This document shows, in pieces, positions 1,821 through 12,159 of a stretch of 64,000 nt of DNA; position 1 is the stretch's first letter; the number at the start of each line of letters is the position of its first letter. The translations under genes and the position numbers were made by a program. The stretch lies in assembly GCF_002940685.1 (NCBI RefSeq), contig NZ_PNFP01000013.1:124001-188000 (forward strand), read 5' to 3'. A model generated the notes under the pieces. The model saw only the letters and a program-made list of their open reading frames with translations, was not told the origin of the DNA and made no database searches. This DNA is from Ensifer adhaerens (lineage in GTDB: Bacteria > Pseudomonadota > Alphaproteobacteria > Rhizobiales > Rhizobiaceae).

Positions 1821-2768
1821 TTGTACAATCTGATATCGGTCGTTCTGAAGAAGCGTCTCGACCTTTCGTTCAAGACGTCGTCAACTTTCCGCGCAAGGAT
1901 CGTGGAGGCTCCCGGGCTTTGGATGAGCGAGCGGGACGTCGCCAGGCTGCGGCACGATCTGCGCAAGGTCGCGGAGCGGTCGGTTCCCGGCGGGGAACTG
2001 GACTATGGCGTCTTTTCCGAGAAGGACGATGCGCTTGCCCGGACGATCGTGACGCTCGTCTACCGGGTTTCCGACGGGGAACCGGTCGCCTTCAACGCTC
2101 TGCCCGTCATCCCGCTATCGCTCGCAGGTAAGCCGATCGAGGTTCTTCACCTGGGACTGGTTATGATCGATCCCGAGGTTCGCAATCAGGGCCTCTCTTG
2201 GGTGCTCTACGGCCTCACCTGCTTCCTTCTCTTCCTGCGCAATCAGCTTCGCCCGCTCTGGATTTCCAATGTCACGCAGGTGCCGGCCGTCGCCGGCATG
2301 GTGGCCGAAACGTTCAGCAAGGTGTTCCCGGCGCCCACGCGTGGCGCACGCCGGTCGCTCCACCAGCAATTGATTGCCACGGCCATCATGTGTTCCCATC
2401 GCCACGTCTTCGGTGTCGGGGCCGATGCCGAATTCGACGCCGACCGTTTCGTCATCACCAACGCCTATACGGGTGGTTCCGACAACCTGAAAAAGACCTT
2501 CGAGGCGGCACCGAAGCATCGCAAAGCGGAGTACAACGACTTCTGCGCCACCGAACTCGACTATGATCGCGGTGACGACCTGCTTCAGATCGGCCAACTC
2601 GACCTCAACGCGGCGCAACGTTACCTTCTGGAAAGCGTGCCGCGCAATGCGCTTGGCCGTCTTGCCGTCGCAAGTTTCGCCATCCTCGTCCAAAGGCTGG
2701 CTCTGCCGCTCCTGCATTGGGCCGACAGCCGTCGGCAGTGGGGCATCTTGAGACCTTCGAAGCAATGA
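1821..2768 (+). CDS. GNAT-like hypothetical protein, first gene of the ThiF operon
   Basis: About 315 residues, not a protein I can name. The middle holds an acetyltransferase-like motif A: HLGLVMIDPEVRNQGLSWVL (around residues 110-130), where a beta strand is followed by R-N-Q-G-L. This suggests an acyl-CoA binding GNAT fold. The rest has no recognised domain and no signal peptide. The start is uncertain. TTG at 1821 gives a natural N-terminus (MYNLISVVLKKRLDLSF) but a weak ribosome site. ATG at 1923 has GGAGG 14 bases upstream. The stop overlaps the next start (ATGA), so it is translationally coupled to the ThiF-like gene. Acyl transfer to a small molecule or protein is only inference. Confidence 0.65.
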   Translation: MYNLISVVLKKRLDLSFKTSSTFRARIVEAPGLWMSERDVARLRHDLRKVAERSVPGGELDYGVFSEKDDALARTIVTLVYRVSDGEPVAFNALPVIPLSLAGKPIEVLHLGLVMIDPEVRNQGLSWVLYGLTCFLLFLRNQLRPLWISNVTQVPAVAGMVAETFSKVFPAPTRGARRSLHQQLIATAIMCSHRHVFGVGADAEFDADRFVITNAYTGGSDNLKKTFEAAPKHRKAEYNDFCATELDYDRGDDLLQIGQLDLNAAQRYLLESVPRNALGRLAVASFAILVQRLALPLLHWADSRRQWGILRPSKQ

Positions 2769-3652
2769 GCAGCGCTTTCTCCTATCAGGCCTTCACCACA
2801 CGCAACATCGGTTTCGTCACCGAGGCGGAGCAACGGCGCCTGCACGAGGCGACCGTCTTTGTCTGCGGAACCGGGGGCATGGGTGGCGCCTGTATCCAGG
2901 CGCTGGCGCGGGTCGGCATCGGTCGTCTCATCCTCGCCGATATCGACAGTTTCGAACTGTCGAACCTCAATCGCCAGGTTTTCTGCTTTGCAGATACGAT
3001 CGGCATGCCCAAGGCAGAAGCGACCCGCGACCTCTGCCTGAAGATCAATCCCGACCTCAACGTGACCGTCTTCGGCCGGGATTGGACCGACCATGTCGAG
3101 GCGCTCGTTGGCGAGGCGAGCGTCGTCGTCAACGGAACCGATGATCTCGGCGCCAGCCTCCTGCTCTACCGCGTCTCGCGAGACATCGGCCGGACGGTGG
3201 TCGATGCCTATGCGTCGCCCCTGCCCTCGGTCTATGTCACTCGTCCGCAGGATCCGATGCCGGAAGAACGGCTTGGGTACCCAACTGTCGGAACCGCCTG
3301 GAACGCGCTGACAGCCGAGCAGCGGACGGATGCCTTCCTGCGCGAAGCGGAGTATGTGATGGTCCACTCGTCGTCGCGTCACCATGTCGATCTTTCGCTC
3401 GCCGGCGAAGTGATTGCCGGCACCCGCAGTCGCATGTCCTTCGCGCCGATGGTGATCTCGACCGGCACATTGATGGCCTATGAGGCGATCCACGCCGTGC
3501 TGGGCCGGCCACAGTCGGCCGATTGCCGCGGTTGGTTCTTCAACCCGCATGCCGGACGCGTCGAACGCCCACGCAACGCCCTCGTCGCAACATTGTTGCG
3601 TCCATTGGTGCGGCGCTACCTGATGCGCCTTGCAGCGCCGGCAGCACCATGA
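2765..3652 (+). CDS. ThiF/MoeB/HesA-family E1-like adenylyltransferase
   Basis: A 295-residue E1-like enzyme that should activate a carboxylate, often a C-terminal glycine of a ubiquitin-like protein or peptide, as an acyl adenylate. The nucleotide site is intact: GTGGMGG at about residue 36, the acidic DIDSFELSNLNRQ block with the Asn and Arg of the family, Lys in GMPKAEA, and Asp in NGTDDLGAS. The paired CxxC zinc site of MoeB/ThiF is absent and I see no obvious catalytic cysteine loop, so this is a divergent adenylyltransferase. No ThiS- or MoaD-like partner is encoded nearby. The start is the ATG overlapping the previous stop. ThiF domains linked to Acg-like nitroreductase domains are known (the Rv1355c/MoeY type of mycobacteria); here the two domains are separate genes of one operon. 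Confidence 0.88.
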   Translation: MSSAFSYQAFTTRNIGFVTEAEQRRLHEATVFVCGTGGMGGACIQALARVGIGRLILADIDSFELSNLNRQVFCFADTIGMPKAEATRDLCLKINPDLNVTVFGRDWTDHVEALVGEASVVVNGTDDLGASLLLYRVSRDIGRTVVDAYASPLPSVYVTRPQDPMPEERLGYPTVGTAWNALTAEQRTDAFLREAEYVMVHSSSRHHVDLSLAGEVIAGTRSRMSFAPMVISTGTLMAYEAIHAVLGRPQSADCRGWFFNPHAGRVERPRNALVATLLRPLVRRYLMRLAAPAAP

Positions 3653-4848
3653 ATACGCCCATCGTTGCCGATAGTTTCGTTTCGCTGGCGGCACTTGGCG
3701 GCCTGATCGTGCTGATCGGCGTCATCCGCAGTTTGAATGCCACAAGTCCGTTGAACCGCCGCTTCCTGTTCGGATTGCAGGTCCTGGCGGCGTTGATGGC
3801 AAGCCGGGTGCTTGCCTGGTGGACGGACCTCTACATCTTCAAGGCCGCAACAATCATAACAGCGGGGCTTGTGCCGCTTGCGACCGTCCTGCTCGCCGAG
3901 GGCCTGTTGCGCCGCCACGCGCCAAGGACAACGAAGTGGATTGCGGCCGGTGGCGCCATCACCTTCTTTGCTCTCGCCTTCCTTCCTGCAGCGATCGCCG
4001 AGCCCTGGCGTGTCGCGCTGCTGTTCGTCTATCAGCTGGTCACCTTCGCTCTCGCCGGTCACATGACGGTCACGCGCGACCGGGCGAGCCTGTCGAAGGC
4101 GGAGAACCAGGCGATCGACCGCATTGCCCTTTCGCTGCTGCTGATCCTGCCTTTGCTCGTCACCGACTTCCGCTCGGTTTACATCGACCAGCCGGTGCGG
4201 CTCGGCGGAGTCGCGATCCTGTTCCTGTGCTGGCTGCTGATCAGTCTTGGCCAACGGGCCGTCGGACATCGTGACACCGTGGTCTCCTTCGTCATCCTGC
4301 TCTCCGTTGCCCTCCTCGCGGCCATCGTTATCGGCGTCGAAAACAGGCTCGAACCAGCCGCGCTGGTCCGCGCGGGAAGCGTCATCCTCAGTGCCGCCCT
4401 GCTCGGCGTGATCTGGAAGGACAGCATCAGCCTGCGCATGGAGCAGCGGCGACAGAGCCTGATTAGGCATCTGGCCGAGGACAGCATCGACGACACGCTC
4501 GGCTTCCTCAAGGAATTGCAGAAACATCCACTGGTGGACGGCGCACTTCTGATTGGCGAAGATGAGCTTTCCGAGCTCGACCTGCCGGTGATCAAGGCGC
4601 TCTTTGCCGCCCGCCCGCTGCTGCGGGCTTCCGAAGTCGATAGCCTTTCGCAAGCGGACGCCGAGCAACTCGCCTGGCTGCTCGAAAAATACGAGGCGAC
4701 CCATGTCATGCTGGTGTCGAACCACCCGTTTCGGCTGACCGCCCTCAACATGCCCTCGGTCTCCGCCACACCGGGCGCCGAGATCGAGCTTAAGGTGGTG
4801 CAGCGCATGGCCGTGCTGATCTCCGAGAGGACCCCACGCCATGATTGA
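3649..4848 (+). CDS. Integral membrane protein of the ThiF operon (about nine helices)
   Basis: A 399-residue protein I do not recognise. About nine hydrophobic segments can be read, from residue 8 (FVSLAALGGLIVLIGVI) to about residue 255 (AGSVILSAALLGVIW). A soluble C-terminal region of about 135 residues follows, starting near KDSISLRMEQRRQ, rich in acidic residues and probably cytoplasmic. There is no signal peptide beyond the first helix and no transporter signature I know. It is locked between ThiF-like and GNAT-like genes by overlapping codons (ATGA at its start, eight-base overlap at its end), so it almost certainly belongs to their pathway. It may anchor the enzymes or handle a lipid-linked or exported product; that is inference. 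Confidence 0.8.
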   Translation: MNTPIVADSFVSLAALGGLIVLIGVIRSLNATSPLNRRFLFGLQVLAALMASRVLAWWTDLYIFKAATIITAGLVPLATVLLAEGLLRRHAPRTTKWIAAGGAITFFALAFLPAAIAEPWRVALLFVYQLVTFALAGHMTVTRDRASLSKAENQAIDRIALSLLLILPLLVTDFRSVYIDQPVRLGGVAILFLCWLLISLGQRAVGHRDTVVSFVILLSVALLAAIVIGVENRLEPAALVRAGSVILSAALLGVIWKDSISLRMEQRRQSLIRHLAEDSIDDTLGFLKELQKHPLVDGALLIGEDELSELDLPVIKALFAARPLLRASEVDSLSQADAEQLAWLLEKYEATHVMLVSNHPFRLTALNMPSVSATPGAEIELKVVQRMAVLISERTPRHD

Positions 4849-5947
4849 GATCCGTGAAGGGAATATCGACGCCTTCTTCGCCGCGCCCTTTCAGATCTAT
4901 GGTCCGCGCTCGCCCTACGTTTCGCCGATGTTCAGCGATCTCAAGCGCTTCCTGTCCGCTGGCAAGAACCCTCTCTTCGATACGGCGGAGGACTTCGCCA
5001 CCTTTACCGCCCATCGGGGCGGGGCTGTGTGCGGGCGCATAACGGCCCACCTGCACCGCGCATCAAACGCGCAGTTTGGTCTCGATCGCGGTTACTTCGG
5101 CTATTTCGACTGCGCCGACGACGAGCGTGTCGCAGCCGCCCTTTTGGAGCGGGCCGAAGCTTGGGTGCGCGCGAAAGGCTTGCGGGAGATCCTTGGAAAC
5201 TTCAACCTGACGGCCATGCAGCAAGTCGGCGTGATGACCGGAGGCTTCGAGCATGCGCCCTATACCGATCAGATCTGGGGACCGCCCTACCTGCCCCGCC
5301 TCCTGGAAAGCCGGGGTTACGCGGCCTCTTTCCCGATGACAACGTTCGAAATCGACGTCCGTACCGTGGCTATCGATGGCCTGCTCGCCAGTGCGCAGAT
5401 GCGCGCGCTTTTCGACGACGGCTTTCGTTTTTCACCGATCCGGCGATCGACGCTCGAACGGAGGCTGGAGGATTCCCGGCTGATCCTCAATGAGAGCTTT
5501 GCGGACAATCCGATGTTCGTGCCCGTCAGCCGTGCGGAGTTTGATTTTCAAGCCAAGGAGATGAAGTGGATCATGGATCCCCGCATTTCGGCGGTGGCGG
5601 AACGGGGTGGCAGGCCAGCCGGCACCGTGATCGCCATACCCGACGTCAATCCGATGCTGAAGGCGATGGGCTCGCGGCTCGGGTTGAGTGCACCCTGGCA
5701 TCTGCTCAAGCACCGCCTGCAGCGGCGACGCGCCGTCATCATATTCCAGGGCGTCAAACCGGAACACCAGGGACGCGGTCTCAATCCACTGCTCCTTGCC
5801 CATGTGCTCGGCGAGATGCGCCGCGCGGGCTACGAGACTGCCGGCGGCACCTGGATCGCCGACGTCAACGCGGCAAGCCTGAGGCAGGCGGAGAAGGCGG
5901 GCGCCAAGCCGCTCCATCGCCTGCATCTCTTCGGAAAGACATTATGA
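4841..5947 (+). CDS. GNAT-superfamily acyltransferase-like protein
   Basis: A 368-residue protein, about twice the size of a single GNAT domain. The C-terminal part holds the clearest acyl-CoA site: FQGVKPEHQGRGLNPLLLAHV near residue 300, followed by an ETAGGTWIADVNAASLRQAEKAGAK helix-strand-helix end typical of the fold. The N-terminal half has SPYVSPMFSDLKRFL and GNFNLTAMQQVG, a pattern I associate with large uncharacterised GNAT proteins of the YghO kind (low certainty). No signal peptide is visible. It overlaps the upstream gene by eight bases and the downstream start by four. It may acylate the molecule activated by the neighbouring E1-like enzyme, but there is no direct evidence of substrate. 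Confidence 0.75.
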   Translation: MIEIREGNIDAFFAAPFQIYGPRSPYVSPMFSDLKRFLSAGKNPLFDTAEDFATFTAHRGGAVCGRITAHLHRASNAQFGLDRGYFGYFDCADDERVAAALLERAEAWVRAKGLREILGNFNLTAMQQVGVMTGGFEHAPYTDQIWGPPYLPRLLESRGYAASFPMTTFEIDVRTVAIDGLLASAQMRALFDDGFRFSPIRRSTLERRLEDSRLILNESFADNPMFVPVSRAEFDFQAKEMKWIMDPRISAVAERGGRPAGTVIAIPDVNPMLKAMGSRLGLSAPWHLLKHRLQRRRAVIIFQGVKPEHQGRGLNPLLLAHVLGEMRRAGYETAGGTWIADVNAASLRQAEKAGAKPLHRLHLFGKTL

Positions 5948-6963
5948 GCCGCATCGACGCCGCCACGCTCACCGATCTGGCGGCGGAGGCCAATCTCGCC
6001 CCCTCCGTCCACAATACCCAGCCGGCACGCTGGATGCTGGACAAGGACGGATGCATTCTCCTTGCCGCCGACCTCTCACGGCACCTTAGCATCGGCGATC
6101 CGACCGGTCGCGACATGGGGCTTTCCTGCGGAGCAGCGCTCGAGGGCATGGTGATGGCGCTTGCCGCCCGCCGGATCGGTGTGGCGATCGATGATCTCTG
6201 GGCGGACGATGCACGCGATTGGCGGCCCGGCTACCGATTGGCCGCGCGGCTGACCCCTGTCGGCGATGCAGAGCCGTCCGAGCTTGCCCTTTGGACCACC
6301 GGGCGCTTCACCTGGCGTGCTCCGTTCTTGCCAGCAGCGCCCGACGAGATTGCGCGGCTTGAGCACTGGGTGGCCGAGACGGACGATGCAACCTGCGCCC
6401 GCAGCCATGCGGATCTGGCCTTTATCGCCGCACTGAACGACGGCGCAAGTCTGACCGTCTTGCGCGCACGCGCCTTCCGCGATGAACTCGTCGCGTGGAT
6501 GCGGCTTTCGCGCAGCCACCCGGACTATGCCTTTGACGGGCTCAACCTTGCTGCCCTGCGGATGGGGAGGGTCGAAGGAGCGTTGGCCGGACATTTGCTC
6601 GCCTCACCGCTTTTCGACTTTGCCGACCGGCTGGGCCTCGGCAAAGCGCTCGTGGCGGAAGCTGGAAAGACGACGACTGCGGCAGCCTGCCTCCTGTTCC
6701 ATCGGCCTGAGAGTGAGAGCCCGATCGTTTCGGGGCGGGCCTTCTATCGTTTCTGGCTGGGCTTCACGCGCTTCGGTTTCGCCGGCTGGCCGATGGCAGT
6801 CCTTGCCGACGTGCCAGCCGCCGCGGACGCATTGCAGCAGCGTTTCCCATTGCCGCCCGGCCACCGGTTGATCAATGTTCTGCGCGTCGGGCCGGCGCCC
6901 TCTGTCGTTCCGAAATTTCGCCTGCCGGCAGATGATCTCGTGCTCGCCGAAGAGCCGGCCTGA
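5944..6963 (+). CDS. Acg-type nitroreductase-fold FMN-binding protein
   Basis: A 339-residue nitroreductase-fold protein of the Acg group. Signatures are NLAPSVHNTQPARW near residue 18, then LAADLSRHLSIGDPTGRDMGLSCGAAL near residue 45, and GFAGWPMAVLADV near the end. Acg proteins of mycobacteria bind FMN tightly and have been suggested to sequester it; other nitroreductase-fold enzymes of this size oxidise azolines or act in cofactor chemistry. The start overlaps the upstream stop (ATGA). The gene closes the operon: its stop codon sits in the loop of a strong hairpin shared with the convergent gene. Together with the ThiF-like gene it mirrors the domain pair fused in Rv1355c-type proteins. 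The reaction is unknown. Confidence 0.85.
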   Translation: MSRIDAATLTDLAAEANLAPSVHNTQPARWMLDKDGCILLAADLSRHLSIGDPTGRDMGLSCGAALEGMVMALAARRIGVAIDDLWADDARDWRPGYRLAARLTPVGDAEPSELALWTTGRFTWRAPFLPAAPDEIARLEHWVAETDDATCARSHADLAFIAALNDGASLTVLRARAFRDELVAWMRLSRSHPDYAFDGLNLAALRMGRVEGALAGHLLASPLFDFADRLGLGKALVAEAGKTTTAAACLLFHRPESESPIVSGRAFYRFWLGFTRFGFAGWPMAVLADVPAAADALQQRFPLPPGHRLINVLRVGPAPSVVPKFRLPADDLVLAEEPA

Positions 6964-6973
6964 GGCCGGCTCT
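6951..6973. terminator. Hairpin between convergent operons
   Basis: AGAGCCGGCC, a TGA loop and GGCCGGCTCT form a perfect 10-bp GC-rich stem. The loop is the stop codon of the Acg-like gene. The facing gene on the minus strand stops only 12 bases further on. The following T-run is weak (CCTTT), so it may be a bidirectional terminator or a 3'-end stabiliser. Confidence 0.6.
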
Positions 6974-6984
6974 CCTTTCGGGTC

Positions 6985-9900
6985 TCAGGCAGCAGCTTCA
7001 GTCCCTGCGACCTCGGCGAGAAGCCTCTGGGCGCTGACGAAATCCACCTTGCCGGTCCCGAGCACCGGTACGGCACCTACCCTCACCTCCGAGGGAACCA
7101 TCATGTCCATGGCGCCCTTGTCTTTGGCGAAGCGGAGGAAGGCGGCGCGTGTCGCACCCGGAGCGTCGGTGAGCATGACCAGGCGTTCACCCTTCTTGGC
7201 ATCGGGCAGCGACACCACAACAGTCAATTGACCCGGCCACATCTCGCCCGCCAGCGCCTCCACGGCGCCAAGCGAAACCATCTCGCCGCCGATCTTGGCG
7301 AAACGTTTGGCCCGGCCGCGGATGACGATGAACCCCTCTTCGTCGACGGTGACGATGTCGCCGGTGTCGTGCCAGCCGTCGGGCGTCGGTTCGATCACCC
7401 CGGGCGCTTCGACGCGAAGATATCCGGCCATCACGTTGGCGCCGCGGATGAAGAGCCGTCCGCCCTCGGTGACACCCGGCACGGCATCGAGCCTGTATTC
7501 CATGCCCGGCATGATCTTGCCGACGCTGCCCGCCTTGTTGAACATGGGCGTGTTGAGCGCGATCACCGGTGCCGCCTCGGTCACGCCGTAGCCTTCGAGG
7601 ATGCGGACGCCGAATTTTTCCATGTAGAGCGCGCGCGTGGCGGCCCTGACCGGCTCGGCGCCGGCGAAGCAGTAGCGGATCGAGCGGAAGTCATAGGGAT
7701 GGGCAGTTCGTGCATAGCCGTTCAGGAAGGTGTCGGTCCCGAAGATGATCGTCGCGTTCGAGGCGTAGATCAATTCGGGGATAATCCGGTAGTGCAGCGG
7801 CGACGGATAAAAGTAGACCGGCACGCCGGAGATGAGCGGCAGGACCGTTCCGGCCGTGAGCCCGAAGGAATGGAACACGGGCAGGATGTTGAACACCTTG
7901 TCGCCAGAGTGAAAATCGATGCGAGACGCGGCCTGGGCTGCGTTGGCGAGGATGTTGCGGTGGGTCAGCACCACGCCCTTCGGCGTTCCCTCGGATCCCG
8001 AAGTGTAGAGGATAACCGCCGGCTCCTCGGCCGTGCGCCGGACAAGCGGCCGCCCCTTGTGCAGAAGGCCGCGCAGCTTGTCGGCAAGGCCGATCGTCTG
8101 GCGCAGATCATCGAGCCAGACGATCTCCACCGTCTTCGACAGTTCCTCGACGACCGGGCCGAGTTTCGCCTGGGCAACGAAGGCGCGTGACGTCAGTACG
8201 TGACGGACCTCCGCGGCCTTACAAGCCGAAAGGATGTTGGCCGCGCCCGCGGTGAAGTTGAGCATGGCCGGCACCTTGCCGGCGGACATCACGCCGAGGA
8301 TGGTTGCAACTGCACCATTGGCATTGGGCAGGAGAACGCCAAGCGCCTGTTCGTTCGGGAAAAACAACTTGAACTTTGCGCCCAGCACGGCCGCACCCGT
8401 CAAAAGCTTTCCATAGGACAGGGAACCGGTGACCGGGTCCTGCACCGCGAGCCGGTTGAAGCCACGCTCCCTGGCCGTCTTGATCACCCTTTCGAGCACG
8501 GTGGTGTCGGTATCCGTGGTGCGGAACATCAGCATCGACATGACCTGATAAAGTGCTGCGCCCGCAGCCATCCGGCGCTTTCGGCCCTTCAACTCCTGCG
8601 GTACGCAGAGGCGCACCGGCTCCAGAATGGTGACCTTCACCTTCGGAAACAGGCGGCGGCGAACATGCAGGGAGCTGAGACGGGAAAAGTAGCTCTTCTC
8701 CAACCCGTCGATGCGCACGGGCACGACCATGGAGCCGGTCTTGTCGGCCACCATCGCGGCGCCGTCATAGACCTTCATCAGCGCGCCGGTCACCGTGATG
8801 CGGCCCTCGGGGAAGATCACCAACGGCTCACCATTGTTGACCGTCTTGATGAGCGTGCGCGTCGCCATCGGCTTCGAGGGATCCAGAGGCAGGAAGTTGC
8901 ACATCTTCAGGAACGGCTTGACCCACCAGGCCTTCGCGATCGTGTAGTCGACCGCGAAGGTCGGCTCCTCTTCGGTCAGCGCCAGCGCCAGAGCACCATC
9001 GAGGAAGGACACATGGTTGAGCGCAATGATCGGTGCGCGACCCGCCTTTTTCAGGTTGTCGAGGCCTTCCACCTCCAGCCGCAGGAAGGCACGGAAGAGG
9101 ATCGAGACGAAATCACGGAATGCGTTGGTCGGCAGCGTGCGCAGCATGACAAAGGCCGCCACGGCATTGGCGAATGCGAGGCCGGCGAAAAGCGCCGGTG
9201 TCGATACACCGGAGGTCTGCAGCACGGCGACAAGGCCACCGCCGGCGGTGATGAAGGCCGCGGACAGCACGTTCGATGCACCGATGACGCGCGAACGCTG
9301 GTCCTCTTGCGCCCAGGCCTGAAGGGCAGCGAGCGTGGGGACGGCCAGGAAGGCGCCAGCAATCGCCATGCCGGCAAGATCGATGGCGATCCGCACCCTA
9401 TAGGAACCGGCAAAGAAGGCGGAGAGCGTTTCAGTCGGTACAACCGCGCCGGCATGCCAGACGCACCAGGCGAGATCGAGGCCGAACAGCGCCATGATCA
9501 GGGCTCCGACGGGTGCCGGCAAGAGCACGATACGTCCAGCCAACATCCAGGCGGCGATCGCCGAGCCGAGGCCGACCGCGACCGCAAAGACGGCGAGATA
9601 GGCAGTGATCGCAGTCTCGTCGCCGCCGAGATCGTTCTTCACCATGGGCGGCAGCAGCGACAGCACGATGGCGCCCGCCAGCCAGAACCACGCGGCCATC
9701 AGCGCCGTGCGCCAAAGCCGCCTGTCGCCGTGAAGCGAAGCAACGAGGCGGGCGGTGGAACGCAGGACGTTGCGATCGACGACCAAGTCCGGCGCCTTGG
9801 CGCCAAGACGCGGAATGTAGCGGCTCGAAAGCCAGCAGGCGAGCGCTAGGCCGAGCATCATGGGACCAAACAGCCAGGGATTGACGCCATCGGCTGCGGC

Positions 9901-10383
9901 AAGACCTGCGATGACAGTGCCGCTGAGGATGGCGATAAACGTCGCCCCCTCGATCCAGGCGTTGGCGCGCGGCAGTTCCTTGCGCTCCAGGTGGTCGGGC
10001 AGGATGCCGTATTTGACGGGCCCGAAGAGCGCAGAGATGGCACCGAACAGGAAGAGTGCAACCAGCAGCACAGCGATGGAGGAGAATACGATACCGAAAA
10101 CCGCAACGCCCGCGGCAGCAAGCTCCCAGCGCTTCAGTCTCTCGGCAACGATCGCCTTGTCGAACTTGTCGGCAAGCTCACCGCCAAGGGCGGAAAAGAA
10201 GAGGAACGGCGCCATGAAGACGGCGCCGGCCAGGGTGACCAGCGAGCCCGCATCCTCGGCCGCCATGGTGGCGAGGATGAGGAAGACGAGCGTGTTCTTG
10301 AGGAAATTGTCGTTGAACGCCGACAGAAACTGCGTCCAGAAGAGCGGCGCAAAGCGCCGCGACGTCATGAGATTGTTTTTCAC
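6985..10383 (-). CDS. MFS transporter / PlsC acyltransferase / AMP-dependent acyl ligase fusion (LplT-Aas type)
   Basis: A 1132-residue fusion of three functions. Residues about 1-415 are a 12-helix major-facilitator domain like the lysophospholipid flippase LplT (QFLSAFNDNFLKNTLVFLIL at the start). Residues about 430-630 are a PlsC-type acyltransferase with the H-x4-D motif in LNHVSFLDG and FPEGRITVTG. Residues about 640-1132 are an adenylate-forming acyl-ACP/CoA synthetase with YTSGSEGTPKGVVLTH near residue 790 and HDTGDIV near the end. In E. coli LplT and Aas are separate and recycle lysophosphatidylethanolamine; here one chain should flip, activate fatty acid and re-acylate. The GTG start has AAAGGAG eight bases upstream. 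It is the last gene after pspA-like and yiaA/B-like genes and probably shares their TetR control. Confidence 0.92.
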   Translation of the reverse strand: MKNNLMTSRRFAPLFWTQFLSAFNDNFLKNTLVFLILATMAAEDAGSLVTLAGAVFMAPFLFFSALGGELADKFDKAIVAERLKRWELAAAGVAVFGIVFSSIAVLLVALFLFGAISALFGPVKYGILPDHLERKELPRANAWIEGATFIAILSGTVIAGLAAADGVNPWLFGPMMLGLALACWLSSRYIPRLGAKAPDLVVDRNVLRSTARLVASLHGDRRLWRTALMAAWFWLAGAIVLSLLPPMVKNDLGGDETAITAYLAVFAVAVGLGSAIAAWMLAGRIVLLPAPVGALIMALFGLDLAWCVWHAGAVVPTETLSAFFAGSYRVRIAIDLAGMAIAGAFLAVPTLAALQAWAQEDQRSRVIGASNVLSAAFITAGGGLVAVLQTSGVSTPALFAGLAFANAVAAFVMLRTLPTNAFRDFVSILFRAFLRLEVEGLDNLKKAGRAPIIALNHVSFLDGALALALTEEEPTFAVDYTIAKAWWVKPFLKMCNFLPLDPSKPMATRTLIKTVNNGEPLVIFPEGRITVTGALMKVYDGAAMVADKTGSMVVPVRIDGLEKSYFSRLSSLHVRRRLFPKVKVTILEPVRLCVPQELKGRKRRMAAGAALYQVMSMLMFRTTDTDTTVLERVIKTARERGFNRLAVQDPVTGSLSYGKLLTGAAVLGAKFKLFFPNEQALGVLLPNANGAVATILGVMSAGKVPAMLNFTAGAANILSACKAAEVRHVLTSRAFVAQAKLGPVVEELSKTVEIVWLDDLRQTIGLADKLRGLLHKGRPLVRRTAEEPAVILYTSGSEGTPKGVVLTHRNILANAAQAASRIDFHSGDKVFNILPVFHSFGLTAGTVLPLISGVPVYFYPSPLHYRIIPELIYASNATIIFGTDTFLNGYARTAHPYDFRSIRYCFAGAEPVRAATRALYMEKFGVRILEGYGVTEAAPVIALNTPMFNKAGSVGKIMPGMEYRLDAVPGVTEGGRLFIRGANVMAGYLRVEAPGVIEPTPDGWHDTGDIVTVDEEGFIVIRGRAKRFAKIGGEMVSLGAVEALAGEMWPGQLTVVVSLPDAKKGERLVMLTDAPGATRAAFLRFAKDKGAMDMMVPSEVRVGAVPVLGTGKVDFVSAQRLLAEVAGTEAAA

Positions 10384-10470
10384 GGAACGTCTCCTTTTTG
10401 AGCGCTCTGGATGAAAACCGTTCCACGCTCGTGCACAGGCCGTGCTTCGTGGCTGCAGGGCTGCCGATGA

Positions 10471-10749
10471 TCAAGCTTCGTCGCCCTTCATGCCGAGCAG
10501 CAGCTTTTCCGTCTTGGCATCGTCGATCCGGCGGATGAGCTTTTCGGCTTCCAGATTGTCGCGAAGCGTCTTGGTGACATTTACCGCCGTCTGCAGGAGC
10601 ATCAGGATCCCCATGGCGAGATAGCCCTTTCCCCAAAGGTCGATGGGCATCATGTAGAGGCCGATCACCACCATGAAGGCGGCCACGCCGAAGCTGACAT
10701 AGGAAAATGAGGTCCAGGCGGAGGAGTGTTTCATCAAGCTGTCATTCAT
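10471..10749 (-). CDS. YiaA/YiaB-family two-helix inner membrane protein
   Basis: A 92-residue protein matching the YiaA/B two-helix domain: SSAWTSFSYVSFGVAAFMVV, then IGLYMMPIDLWGKGYLAMG, then ILMLLQTAVNVTKTLRDN, and a charged cytoplasmic tail (EAEKLIRRIDDAKTEKLLLG). The biochemical role of the family is unknown. It lies 27 bases after the PspA-like gene and 87 bases before the MFS-PlsC-ligase fusion, on the same strand, so an envelope-maintenance role is suggested by context. The ATG has AAGGAA upstream. Confidence 0.85.
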   Translation of the reverse strand: MNDSLMKHSSAWTSFSYVSFGVAAFMVVIGLYMMPIDLWGKGYLAMGILMLLQTAVNVTKTLRDNLEAEKLIRRIDDAKTEKLLLGMKGDEA

Positions 10750-10776
10750 CGTCGTTTCCTTCGAGAAACAGAGGTT

Positions 10777-11463
10777 TCAGGATGCAGGGTTTGCCTTGGT
10801 GCGCAGACGCGCGAGCACGTCATCGGCACTTGTCACGAGAGGCCGGCCACAACCGGCTGCGGCCAGCTTCTGCGCCAGCGCCGACGGATCGGGCCGATGC
10901 TCGAGCTCGATCAGCGCCTCGGCTGTCAGCTCGGCCTCCCGCTGGCGTGTCTCGAGCCGGGCGAGCGTTGCCTCGGCATCGCCAAGTGTTGCGAGATCGT
11001 TCCCGGGCACGTCCCGTGAAAGGCGCCGCGTCCGGTCGCGTGCCTCAGCCAGGCGTTCGCCGCGGCGAAGCGCGGCCAGGCGGGTTTCGCTCTCGCGGAC
11101 GGCTTGCCTCAGCCGCTCTATTCCTTGTGTAAACTCCGCCTGGACCTGACGTGCATTCTGCAATTCCGTCTCCAGCCGGGCGATCGAGGCGGCGGCCTCG
11201 GCTGCCAGATCCTCCCTGCCCTTTTCAAGGGCTGCGATGGCACGTTCCTCGAGATCGCCGATGCGGGCGGAAAGCCTTTCGGCATTTTCCTTTTCCAGGC
11301 GATTTTGCGCGATCGCCAGAGCAACCGATCTGCGGGCAGCCTCGACGCCGCGTGCGGCATCACGGATCTGCTGGGCAAGAATGGGGAGCGCGTGGCGGTC
11401 GCCGAAGGCCTCCTCCGCCGTGTGGGCACGGCCCCTGAGCAGCGTCACGATTTGTTTGAACAT
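10777..11463 (-). CDS. PspA/IM30-family membrane-associated coiled-coil protein
   Basis: A 228-residue protein that begins MFKQIVTLLRGRA, the amphipathic membrane-binding helix typical of PspA, and continues as nearly unbroken charged coiled coil (for example RSVALAIAQNRLEKENAERL and AEAAASIARLETELQNARQ). PspA proteins bind stressed membranes and help maintain proton motive force. The start was set at 11463 because GGAGGTGAGGAA precedes that ATG; a longer frame opens eight codons upstream without a ribosome site. No PspF, PspB or PspC lies near; control appears to come from the divergent TetR gene through three palindromes in the 99-bp gap. The tail GRPLVTSADDVLARLRTK looks less conserved. 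Confidence 0.85.
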   Translation of the reverse strand: MFKQIVTLLRGRAHTAEEAFGDRHALPILAQQIRDAARGVEAARRSVALAIAQNRLEKENAERLSARIGDLEERAIAALEKGREDLAAEAAASIARLETELQNARQVQAEFTQGIERLRQAVRESETRLAALRRGERLAEARDRTRRLSRDVPGNDLATLGDAEATLARLETRQREAELTAEALIELEHRPDPSALAQKLAAAGCGRPLVTSADDVLARLRTKANPAS

Positions 11464-11480
11464 TTCCTCACCTCCATGTA

Positions 11481-11548
11481 TGAACAATGTTCAATAATCT
11501 TTTCGCACAAAGATGAACGATGTTCAATATAAAAATGAACGCCGTTCA
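11481..11548. promoter_or_regulatory. Three TGAAC-N3-GTTCA operators between tetR and pspA-like genes
   Basis: Three 13-bp palindromes of one format lie in the divergent gap: TGAACAATGTTCA (11481-11493), TGAACGATGTTCA (11514-11526) and TGAACGCCGTTCA (11536-11548). Their starts are 33 and 22 bp apart, both multiples of 11, so all three face the same side of the helix. They are the natural sites for the adjacent TetR protein, giving control of the pspA-like operon and autoregulation. The last site ends 14 bp before the TetR start codon. Confidence 0.8.
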
Positions 11549-11562
11549 CAAATGAGGTCACC

Positions 11563-12159
11563 GTGGCAGCAAAGCGTCAAACGAAGAAGGAAGACCTGAA
11601 GGCCAGACTGATCGTCGCCGGCACCGAACTCATTCGGGAACAGGGGCTGAAGAACTTGCGCGCGCGCGATATCGCCGAGCGCGCCGGCTCGGCCCTTGGC
11701 GGGCTCTACACCGTCTTCGACGACCTCGACGGGCTGATACTGCACGTCAATTCCGGCACGCTGAAACGGTTGGAGACCGCGCTCAACGCGGCGATTTCGC
11801 CGTCAACGAACATCGAGGAGACTTTCCTCAGCCTGTCTCTGGCATACCTGCGCTTTGCACTGGCGGAGCGCAACCTGTGGTCCGCCCTTTTCGAACATAG
11901 GATGCCGGAGGGCGTGTCCGTTCCGGAGTGGCATCTCGCCGAGCATGCCTTCCTGATCGGCCTCATTGCGACGCCGCTGTCGCGCCAAATGCCGGACGCT
12001 TCTTGCGACGAGGTGGCTATCCGTGCCCGGACGTTCTTTGCAGCTATTCATGGCGTGCTCTCTCTCAGCCTCGAGGGCCGGTTCATCGGAATAACGACCG
12101 AAGCGCTTGAACACGAAATCACGGTGCTCGCCGGTATCCTTGCCAGGAGCCGGAGCTGA
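11563..12159 (+). CDS. TetR/AcrR-family transcriptional regulator
   Basis: A 198-residue TetR-family repressor. The helix-turn-helix is at residues about 28-55 (LKNLRARDIAERAGSALGGLYTVFDDLDGL), followed by an all-helical ligand-binding domain of the WHG type. The start is a GTG at 11563 with GAGGT five bases upstream; the nearby ATG at 11552 is out of frame. Three identical-format palindromes lie directly upstream, between this gene and the divergent pspA-like operon, so it very likely represses both. The inducing ligand is unknown; a fatty acid or membrane-active compound would fit the controlled genes, but that is inference. Confidence 0.9.
   Translation: MAAKRQTKKEDLKARLIVAGTELIREQGLKNLRARDIAERAGSALGGLYTVFDDLDGLILHVNSGTLKRLETALNAAISPSTNIEETFLSLSLAYLRFALAERNLWSALFEHRMPEGVSVPEWHLAEHAFLIGLIATPLSRQMPDASCDEVAIRARTFFAAIHGVLSLSLEGRFIGITTEALEHEITVLAGILARSRS

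Follow-up and report, generated by a model that had tools for sequence, protein, structure and literature searches.

A five-gene overlapping operon of Ensifer adhaerens as a probable split, membrane-coupled relative of acyl-oxazolone pathways

An operon of five overlapping genes was analysed in a window of 64,000 nucleotides from Ensifer adhaerens (assembly GCF_002940685.1, contig NZ_PNFP01000013.1, positions 124,001 to 188,000 of the forward strand; all positions below count from the first letter of this whole stretch). The operon occupies 1821-6963 on the + strand and on balance probably encodes a pathway akin to the acyl-oxazolone systems OxzAB, TyzACB and TrzAS in a split and membrane-coupled form, with an oxazolone or a dehydro-N-acyl amino acid as predicted product. 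This reading is supported by the presence of a ThiF protein and an Acg-type oxidase in one operon with acyltransferase-like genes, by the co-occurrence of ThiF and oxidase among related loci, by the retained adenylation residues of the ThiF protein, and by a gene 2 profile that lies nearer to acyltransferase-linked ThiFs than to MoeB. In the known pathways TyzA, TrzA and OxzA N-acylate amino acids, ring closure by the ThiF proteins TyzB and TrzS consumes ATP, and Acg-type oxidases use O2 to desaturate (PMC10404671, PMC12856293), and TyzB/TyzC form a split ThiF/oxidase pair that turns N-acyl amino acids into oxazolones (PMC10404671). The fused ThiF-Acg proteins of mycobacteria, whose function a preliminary description of this DNA had given as unknown, do have a function assigned, as Rv1355c is TrzS and makes N-acyl tryptazolones (PMC12856293). 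Few gene clusters have so far been linked to natural oxazolone lipids, whose role in biology is described as open (PMC12856293). A literature search returned no paper on such clusters in Alphaproteobacteria, the terms 'rhizob' and 'membrane protein' are absent from the main texts of PMC10404671 and PMC12856293, and PMC12856293 presents a network of 2,416 ThiF sequences that may include the ThiFs of the operon.

Structure of the operon

All five frames and four overlapping junctions proposed earlier were present in the sequence, with overlaps of 4, 4, 8 and 4 bases, as follows.

1821-2768, + strand: gene 1 (P0001), 315 amino acids, GNAT-fold acyltransferase-like protein with a conserved C-terminal hydrophobic helix
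2765-3652, + strand: gene 2 (P0002), 295 amino acids, ThiF-family adenylyltransferase, proposed cyclase
3649-4848, + strand: gene 3 (P0003), 399 amino acids, nine-helix membrane protein with a cytosolic C-terminal domain, no family matched
4841-5947, + strand: gene 4 (P0004), 368 amino acids, YghO-type GNAT
5944-6963, + strand: gene 5 (P0005), 339 amino acids, Acg-type flavin-dependent oxidase, proposed desaturase
2765-2768, + strand: junction of genes 1 and 2, ATGA, 4-base overlap
3649-3652, + strand: junction of genes 2 and 3, ATGA, 4-base overlap
4841-4848, + strand: junction of genes 3 and 4, eight-base overlap
5944-5947, + strand: junction of genes 4 and 5, ATGA, 4-base overlap

The domain calls also held, with Pfam matches to ThiF for gene 2 and to GNAT for gene 4, an Acg family match for gene 5, and GNAT-fold and nine-helix models for genes 1 and 3. 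The TTG start of gene 1 at 1821 is common to six of six aligned Ensifer copies, the overlaps are kept inside Ensifer, and the ratios of nonsynonymous to synonymous substitution rates of genes 1-5 all fall between 0.07 and 0.20 in two comparisons inside the genus; the five genes are under purifying selection.

The ThiF protein and the Acg-type oxidase

Gene 2 shows a Pfam ThiF match of 6.7e-33, and its top NCBIfam model is PRK08223 (110 bits, cut-off 266). It scores below both the ThiF cut-off (PRK08644, 91 bits vs 159) and the MoeB cut-off (PRK05690, 86 bits vs 266), and the genome's own MoeB, with 329.6 bits in the family scan, lies on another contig, so that the earlier statement that gene 2 is not a housekeeping ThiF or MoeB was supported. 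R13, the GxGGxG motif, N69-R70-Q71, K83, D126 and D127 are kept in 33 of 33 members of the gene 2 family, and gene 2 has the conserved Arg, Lys and Asp of the adenylating cyclase sought in an acyl-oxazolone pathway. When 299 genomes of the phylum were searched with NF011424, a threshold of 1e-60 yielded seven ThiFs from other Pseudomonadota, all of them within about 5 kb of an acyltransferase gene, the partner being a TIGR03694 acyltransferase over the cut-off in six loci and a weak PRK14852 match in one (L148). D126 is present in all seven, they share with gene 2 an N-terminal stretch with Y, R, N and G followed by EQ and L, and the gene 2 profile gives 99-116 bits to them vs 74 to the genome's MoeB, the single comparator of its kind, with a reverse profile from the seven ThiFs giving 106 bits for gene 2 and 68.5 for MoeB. 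One of these loci, L147, has an acyltransferase-ThiF-oxidase layout, and a plasmid search with the L147 oxidase gave no match. In L148-L153, PRK08223-type ThiF genes were observed together with nearby exosortase-type acyltransferases and with short proteins whose starts resemble signal peptides; because no oxidase lies near, a function other than oxazolone synthesis may exist there.

The ThiF fold serves carrier activation in MoeB, ThiF and E1 enzymes. On this general ground gene 2 could activate a protein or peptide carrier, with gene 5 as an unrelated stress oxidoreductase, an explanation that we regard as very improbable given the separate MoeB and the joint travel of ThiF and oxidase with gene 1. 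An E1 thioester needs an invariant Cys, which the gene 2 family lacks (C34 is present in 31 of 33 members), and this counts against an E1-type role. No fitting carrier gene was found in the first 13 kb either, where the only small open reading frame ending in GG has 46 codons and overlaps the yiaA frames, in agreement with the earlier remark that no ubiquitin-like carrier is near.

Gene 5 matches the NCBIfam Acg family NF047509 over residues 12-332 (1.1e-37; 130 bits vs a cut-off of 199) and the Acg structure 2ymv in PDB (5e-8), contains a nearly invariant PSVHN-QP segment and is a single copy in the genome. The Acg-type flavin-dependent oxidase expected adjacent or fused to an oxazolone-forming cyclase is thus found inside the operon, and genes 2 and 5 match their own halves of NF011424 and NF005901, the Rv1355c family.

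Conservation and co-occurrence

Gene 1 was detected in 9 of 297 genomes of the order, namely the source genome and eight others, and the eight loci outside the genus comprise five with genes 1-5 in order and three that have just genes 1 and 3. When named genomes were scanned with the gene 1 alignment, 251 relatives were obtained, the best 80 of which were studied as loci, and the ThiF and oxidase counts use the 75 loci having at least 4.8 kb downstream. Both ThiF and oxidase were observed in 53 of the 75, neither in 19, and one only in 3 (L043, L057 and L086), the oxidase accompanying ThiF in 53 of the 54 ThiF-bearing loci (Fisher 1.4e-14, kinship ignored). On a gene 1 tree, built by a quick method that used no mixture model, 9 changes fall to ThiF and 8 to the oxidase; among seven independent pairs on well-supported branches the oxidase follows ThiF in 5.6 on average and opposes it in 0 (sign test, median p about 0.03). 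Gene 4 is present in 38 and missing in 15 of the 53 ThiF-oxidase loci, has a match in 1 of the 22 loci lacking the full pair (L057), and on the same tree runs 4.2 with vs 0.3 against, which is not significant.

Since gene 3 always stands with gene 1, and ThiF and oxidase are mostly together or both absent, genes 1 and 3 constitute an invariant core, about a quarter of the loci being without genes 2, 4 and 5, the ThiF-oxidase pair is a module, and gene 4 is a further option. The co-occurrence check advised earlier was carried out with the outcome that the genes are conserved together. The claim of a single unit survived for the gene order, which was met again in other families and in five of the eight loci outside the genus, and gave way for its composition, which is not fixed. 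That the five genes are mere neighbours with unrelated functions could be argued from the layout, which differs among loci; it is contradicted already by the order kept over many genera, the overlaps kept in Ensifer, the purifying selection and the paired gain and loss, and we consider it hardly credible.

Some individual loci deserve separate mention. In Mesorhizobium, L057:11831-12864 lacks ThiF and retains short remnants of genes 4 and 5, which indicates that the two-gene form can arise by loss. A full five-gene operon with a gene 1 of 61% identity occurs at L042:9935-15137 in a record labelled Lysobacter sp. MMG2, a gammaproteobacterium, and represents either horizontal transfer or a mislabelled contig. 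A recurrent extra family was observed in 17 of the 80 loci (L060:15077-16798 and 16 others), mostly about 4-6 kb after gene 1 and just past gene 5, and never in loci without ThiF or oxidase. Genes read in two frames in relatives, namely gene 4 (L028:7878-8980 and L100), genes 3 and 5 and aas (L050) and gene 5 (L110), reflect decay or sequencing error.

The core genes 1 and 3

Pfam and NCBIfam scans gave no confident match for gene 1, nor did a PDB sequence search with its 11-row profile give any match. Its AlphaFold2 model, from an alignment of 45 relatives, has a predicted local distance difference test (pLDDT) score of 89.9, and the top Foldseek matches of the model are GNAT enzymes (E 1.6e-5; TM-score 0.31 on the query). 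Ser 126 is invariant in the family and closes an R-x-x-G-L-S stretch, which we take to be the CoA-loop position of GNAT enzymes, and a hydrophobic C-terminal stretch (mean at least 1.6) is present in 41 of the 45 members.

Gene 3 lies near gene 1 on the same strand in 80 of 80 gene 1 loci, where its profile, derived partly from these same loci, scores 290-564 bits, and in the 385 sampled genomes of the class genes 1 and 3 are confined to the same three genomes. In annotated plasmid records both carry only 'hypothetical protein' labels. The gene 3 model (pLDDT 93.6) comprises nine long helices and a soluble C-terminal domain, with Arg/Lys-rich loops where an N-out, C-in topology predicts the inside; R38, R53, E84, H90, K96 and D173 are present in 58 of 58 members, and the near-invariant polar residues lie mostly at the cytosolic face of the model. 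Foldseek against PDB returned nothing at E <=0.001 for gene 3, the best matches being seven-helix receptors (E 0.017, TM-score about 0.3 on the query), and a PDB sequence search with its profile found nothing better than E 0.17. A likeness of the C-terminal domain to GAF, judged by eye, found no support in the domain scan of the 58 members. Weak gene 3 matches outside the genus in G094 (E 6e-4) and G099 (E 8e-4) were discarded after tblastn at 1e-3 was blank in both stretches, the former lying in a 1038-amino-acid RND-pump frame, and a weak gene 1 match in G740 (E 2e-5, 1612-amino-acid frame) was judged spurious.

The constancy of this pair, which stands alone in about a quarter of the loci and occurs in only three genomes of the class sample, together with the modelled N-out/C-in arrangement and soluble C-terminal domain of gene 3, would suit a signalling system, with gene 1 producing a lipid signal that is modified by ThiF and the oxidase and perceived by gene 3 as membrane receptor. 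LuxM/LuxN is a synthase-receptor pair of comparable logic. Scans of the 58 gene 3 members with Pfam and NCBIfam, however, found no kinase, GAF or other output domain at E <=0.1, 7TMR-DISM being weakly matched by two of them, and the polar residues at the cytosolic face would fit catalysis or docking equally, so that we rate a signal pair as improbable.

Gene 4, a YghO-type acyltransferase-like protein

Gene 4 carries a Pfam Acetyltransf_1 match (2.5e-8) and belongs to a widespread family whose members are labelled YghO, GNAT or 'dATP pyrophosphohydrolase' (44 plasmid records). The last label is also borne by Caulobacter CC_1154, which we take to be bCerS. Among the matches listed outside Ensifer, Shinella and Rhizobium, gene 4 aligns with YghO-type proteins at 98-100% query cover, 27-31% identity and E values of 1e-22 to 1e-32, a homology over the full length; a PDB sequence search with its profile gave no match. 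bCerS/YghO acyltransferases act in bacterial sphingolipid synthesis (PMC11087976). In L161 the neighbours of a YghO-labelled gene are a serine palmitoyltransferase (Spt-type) gene over the cut-off, an acyl carrier protein (ACP), a reductase/epimerase-type gene and a fatty acyl-AMP ligase, and in L160 a gene 4 relative stands beside a BioF/Spt-like gene and an SDR gene. As two of the three YghO-family relatives examined adjoin sphingolipid-type genes, gene 4 is best read as a lipid-type N-acyltransferase, here apparently used outside a sphingolipid cluster.

The same kinship, and the two acyltransferase-like genes in one operon, would fit another substrate, namely an amine or an amino lipid of the sphingolipid or ornithine-lipid type, which gene 4 or gene 1 would acylate; ThiF and the oxidase would then tailor a di-acylated lipid. 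We consider this unlikely, although less so than a signal pair, as no Spt-type gene was found among the nine proteins scanned at 1821-12159, the third gene 4 relative (L159) has none in the stretch examined, and gene 4 is absent in 15 of the 53 ThiF-oxidase loci. That absence, together with a gene 1 that is never missing (the loci having been found via gene 1), favours gene 1 over gene 4 as the amino-acid acylator of the proposed acyl-oxazolone pathway.

Neighbouring genes and putative operators

The preliminary description had limited the unit to the five genes; in Ensifer it reaches 12159 and includes the following features, to which an inverted repeat upstream of gene 1 is added.

1732-1747, + strand: candidate operator TTAAACCAAATGTTTG, conserved inverted repeat upstream of gene 1
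6985-10383, - strand: aas, acyl-ACP synthetase / lysophospholipid acyltransferase with MFS domain (NF005291, 1709.6 bits vs cut-off 1349)
10471-10749, - strand: YiaA/B-domain membrane protein (Pfam YiaAB, 1.6e-17)
10777-11487, - strand: PspA/IM30-family protein (Pfam, 3.6e-29)
11482-11548, no strand assigned: three GAACNNNGTTC palindromes, proposed TetR operator (starts 11482, 11515 and 11537)
11563-12159, + strand: TetR-family regulator (Pfam TetR_N 2.5e-6, TetR_C_33 6.8e-11)

Six of 16 Ensifer genomes have gene 1, and the same six have PspA (the PspA scan scored 46 of up to 110 first-look candidates per genome), with aas, yiaA and tetR beside PspA in all six; by chance the two sets would coincide in 1 of 8008 cases, but the six genomes may go back to a common ancestor. 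Of the 80 loci, 28 have PspA, YiaA and TetR together near gene 1 and 18 have a strong homologue of aas there. The TetR-PspA-YiaA trio lies upstream in Bradyrhizobium, and Ruegeria, Pseudovibrio, Mesorhizobium and Ensifer have it downstream. A general dependence of pspA on the operon is contradicted, as five of eight PspA matches in other genera carry the trio with no gene 1 in the genome.

The GAACNNNGTTC pattern has seven matches in the window on both strands, where 0.5 are expected, and six of them fall at 11482-11548 between pspA and tetR, the palindromes being spaced by 33 and 22 bases. A like-spaced triple was observed in 20 of the 80 loci, including Ruegeria, Pseudovibrio and Mesorhizobium, and in none of the seven Bradyrhizobium-type loci having TetR and PspA. 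The search for a TetR operator shared with the region upstream of gene 1 was negative, GAACNNNGTTC being absent there in 28 of 28 loci with TetR and PspA, so that TetR probably controls pspA-yiaA-aas through the putative operator and the operon would be under its own control. The TTAAACCAAATGTTTG inverted repeat is identical in five of six Ensifer copies, altered in the sixth and largely confined to the Ensifer/Shinella lineage, and AAAC-N3..6-GTTT occurs upstream of gene 1 in 5 of the 80 loci vs 0.9 expected.

Discussion

The operon resembles several known systems, and differs from each of them. Like TyzACB, which makes acyl-tyrazolones in Mycobacterium tuberculosis (PMC10404671), it has a separate ThiF cyclase and a single-domain flavin oxidase by an acyltransferase gene; unlike TyzACB, it has another acyltransferase-like protein with a hydrophobic C-terminal helix, the additional genes 3 and 4, and all five genes overlapping on one strand. 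TrzAS (Rv1356c-Rv1355c, acyl-tryptazolones, PMC12856293) likewise applies ThiF and oxidase to one acylated amino acid, and genes 2 and 5 match the halves of the Rv1355c model, but the two activities are fused there and split here, with both halves below the curated cut-off. OxzAB of Pseudoalteromonas rubra combines acyltransferase, ThiF and oxidase domains as described in PMC10404671 and PMC12856293, although in a ThiF-oxidase fusion and with an OxzA that lay outside the gene 1 comparison. The NasY-ThiF-nitroreductase clusters of thalassotalic acid, kyonggic acid and stieleriacine producers (PMC12479983) share split ThiF and nitroreductase genes, an operon-like order and an N-acyl amino acid synthase, a layout seen also in L147 with a TIGR03694 acyltransferase; they differ in that no relation of gene 1 to the tested TIGR03694 acyltransferases was detected and that gene 3 has no counterpart in the passages of PMC12479983 considered. 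Gene 4 is a full-length relative of the YghO-type proteins of sphingolipid clusters (bCerS/YghO, PMC11087976), but at only 26-31% identity and with no Spt or CerR beside it.

From these likenesses the following pathway may be proposed. Gene 1, perhaps with gene 4, would N-acylate an amino acid; gene 2 would adenylate the free carboxylate with ATP, whereupon the amide oxygen would close the five-membered azlactone ring, both steps having been shown for TyzB and TrzS. Gene 5, with O2, would desaturate the amino-acid side, either before the ring closes or afterwards, as shown for TyzC and TrzS, and hydrolysis of the ring would yield a dehydro-N-acyl amino acid, comparable to the thalassotalic acids and stieleriacines. 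Gene 3 would most likely bind or move the acylated product or dock the enzymes at the cytosolic membrane face, and in Ensifer aas, yiaA, pspA and tetR may serve acyl supply and membrane upkeep beside an amphiphilic product. The combination of carboxylate adenylation, acyl transfer and flavin chemistry suggested in the preliminary description thus appears sound as judged from the genes.

A number of observations weigh against the acyl-oxazolone reading. No product has been seen. In the comparisons of the acyltransferase-like genes 1 and 4, covered by the label ACYLTRANSFERASES, hhalign gave gene 1 a probability of 0.3% against the TIGR03694 acyltransferases (OxzA, TyzA and TrzA lying outside this comparison), showed no relation of gene 4 to them, and showed none between genes 1 and 4; the amino acid N-acyltransferase expected beside the cyclase is thus represented by two acyltransferase-like genes, gene 1 having no detectable TIGR03694 relation, and FeeM is not among the 50 Foldseek matches listed for gene 1. 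Genes 2 and 5 both fall below the cut-offs of NF011424 and NF005901 (for the latter 46.6 and 42.1 bits, respectively, vs 476), and the gene 2 scores were set against one MoeB. An oxidase lies within about 5 kb in one of the seven acyltransferase-linked ThiF loci and in none of the other six, so that this ThiF type does not imply an oxidase and the link is not strict. On the side of the neighbouring genes, the lack of GAACNNNGTTC upstream of gene 1 and the trios found without gene 1 point the same way.

New here are the invariant core of genes 1 and 3, the YghO kinship of gene 4 and the link to the Ensifer island. A bolder proposal, which we put forward tentatively and hold to be possible rather than likely, is that genes 1 and 3 form a new unit that stands by itself and is found in Alphaproteobacteria and at least one Lysobacter record. 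It would consist of a synthase of lipid amino acids, anchored in the membrane, and an obligate partner with nine helices, whether a receptor, a flippase or a second enzyme. To this unit a ThiF-oxidase ring-forming module and a ceramide-synthase-like acyltransferase would have been gained or lost, and it would often be wired to a Psp/Aas membrane-repair cassette.

If the acyl-oxazolone reading is true, oxazolone lipids would extend to free-living and plant-associated Alphaproteobacteria, which are readily mutated. The natural two-, four- and five-gene versions, which do not figure in the parts of the published cluster descriptions considered here, would separate acylation from ring closure, and the invariant membrane partner gene 3, likewise without counterpart in those parts, could show the site of lipid action. 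The link to PspA, YiaA and Aas offers a testable idea of the role of such lipids, namely in membrane disturbance or repair.

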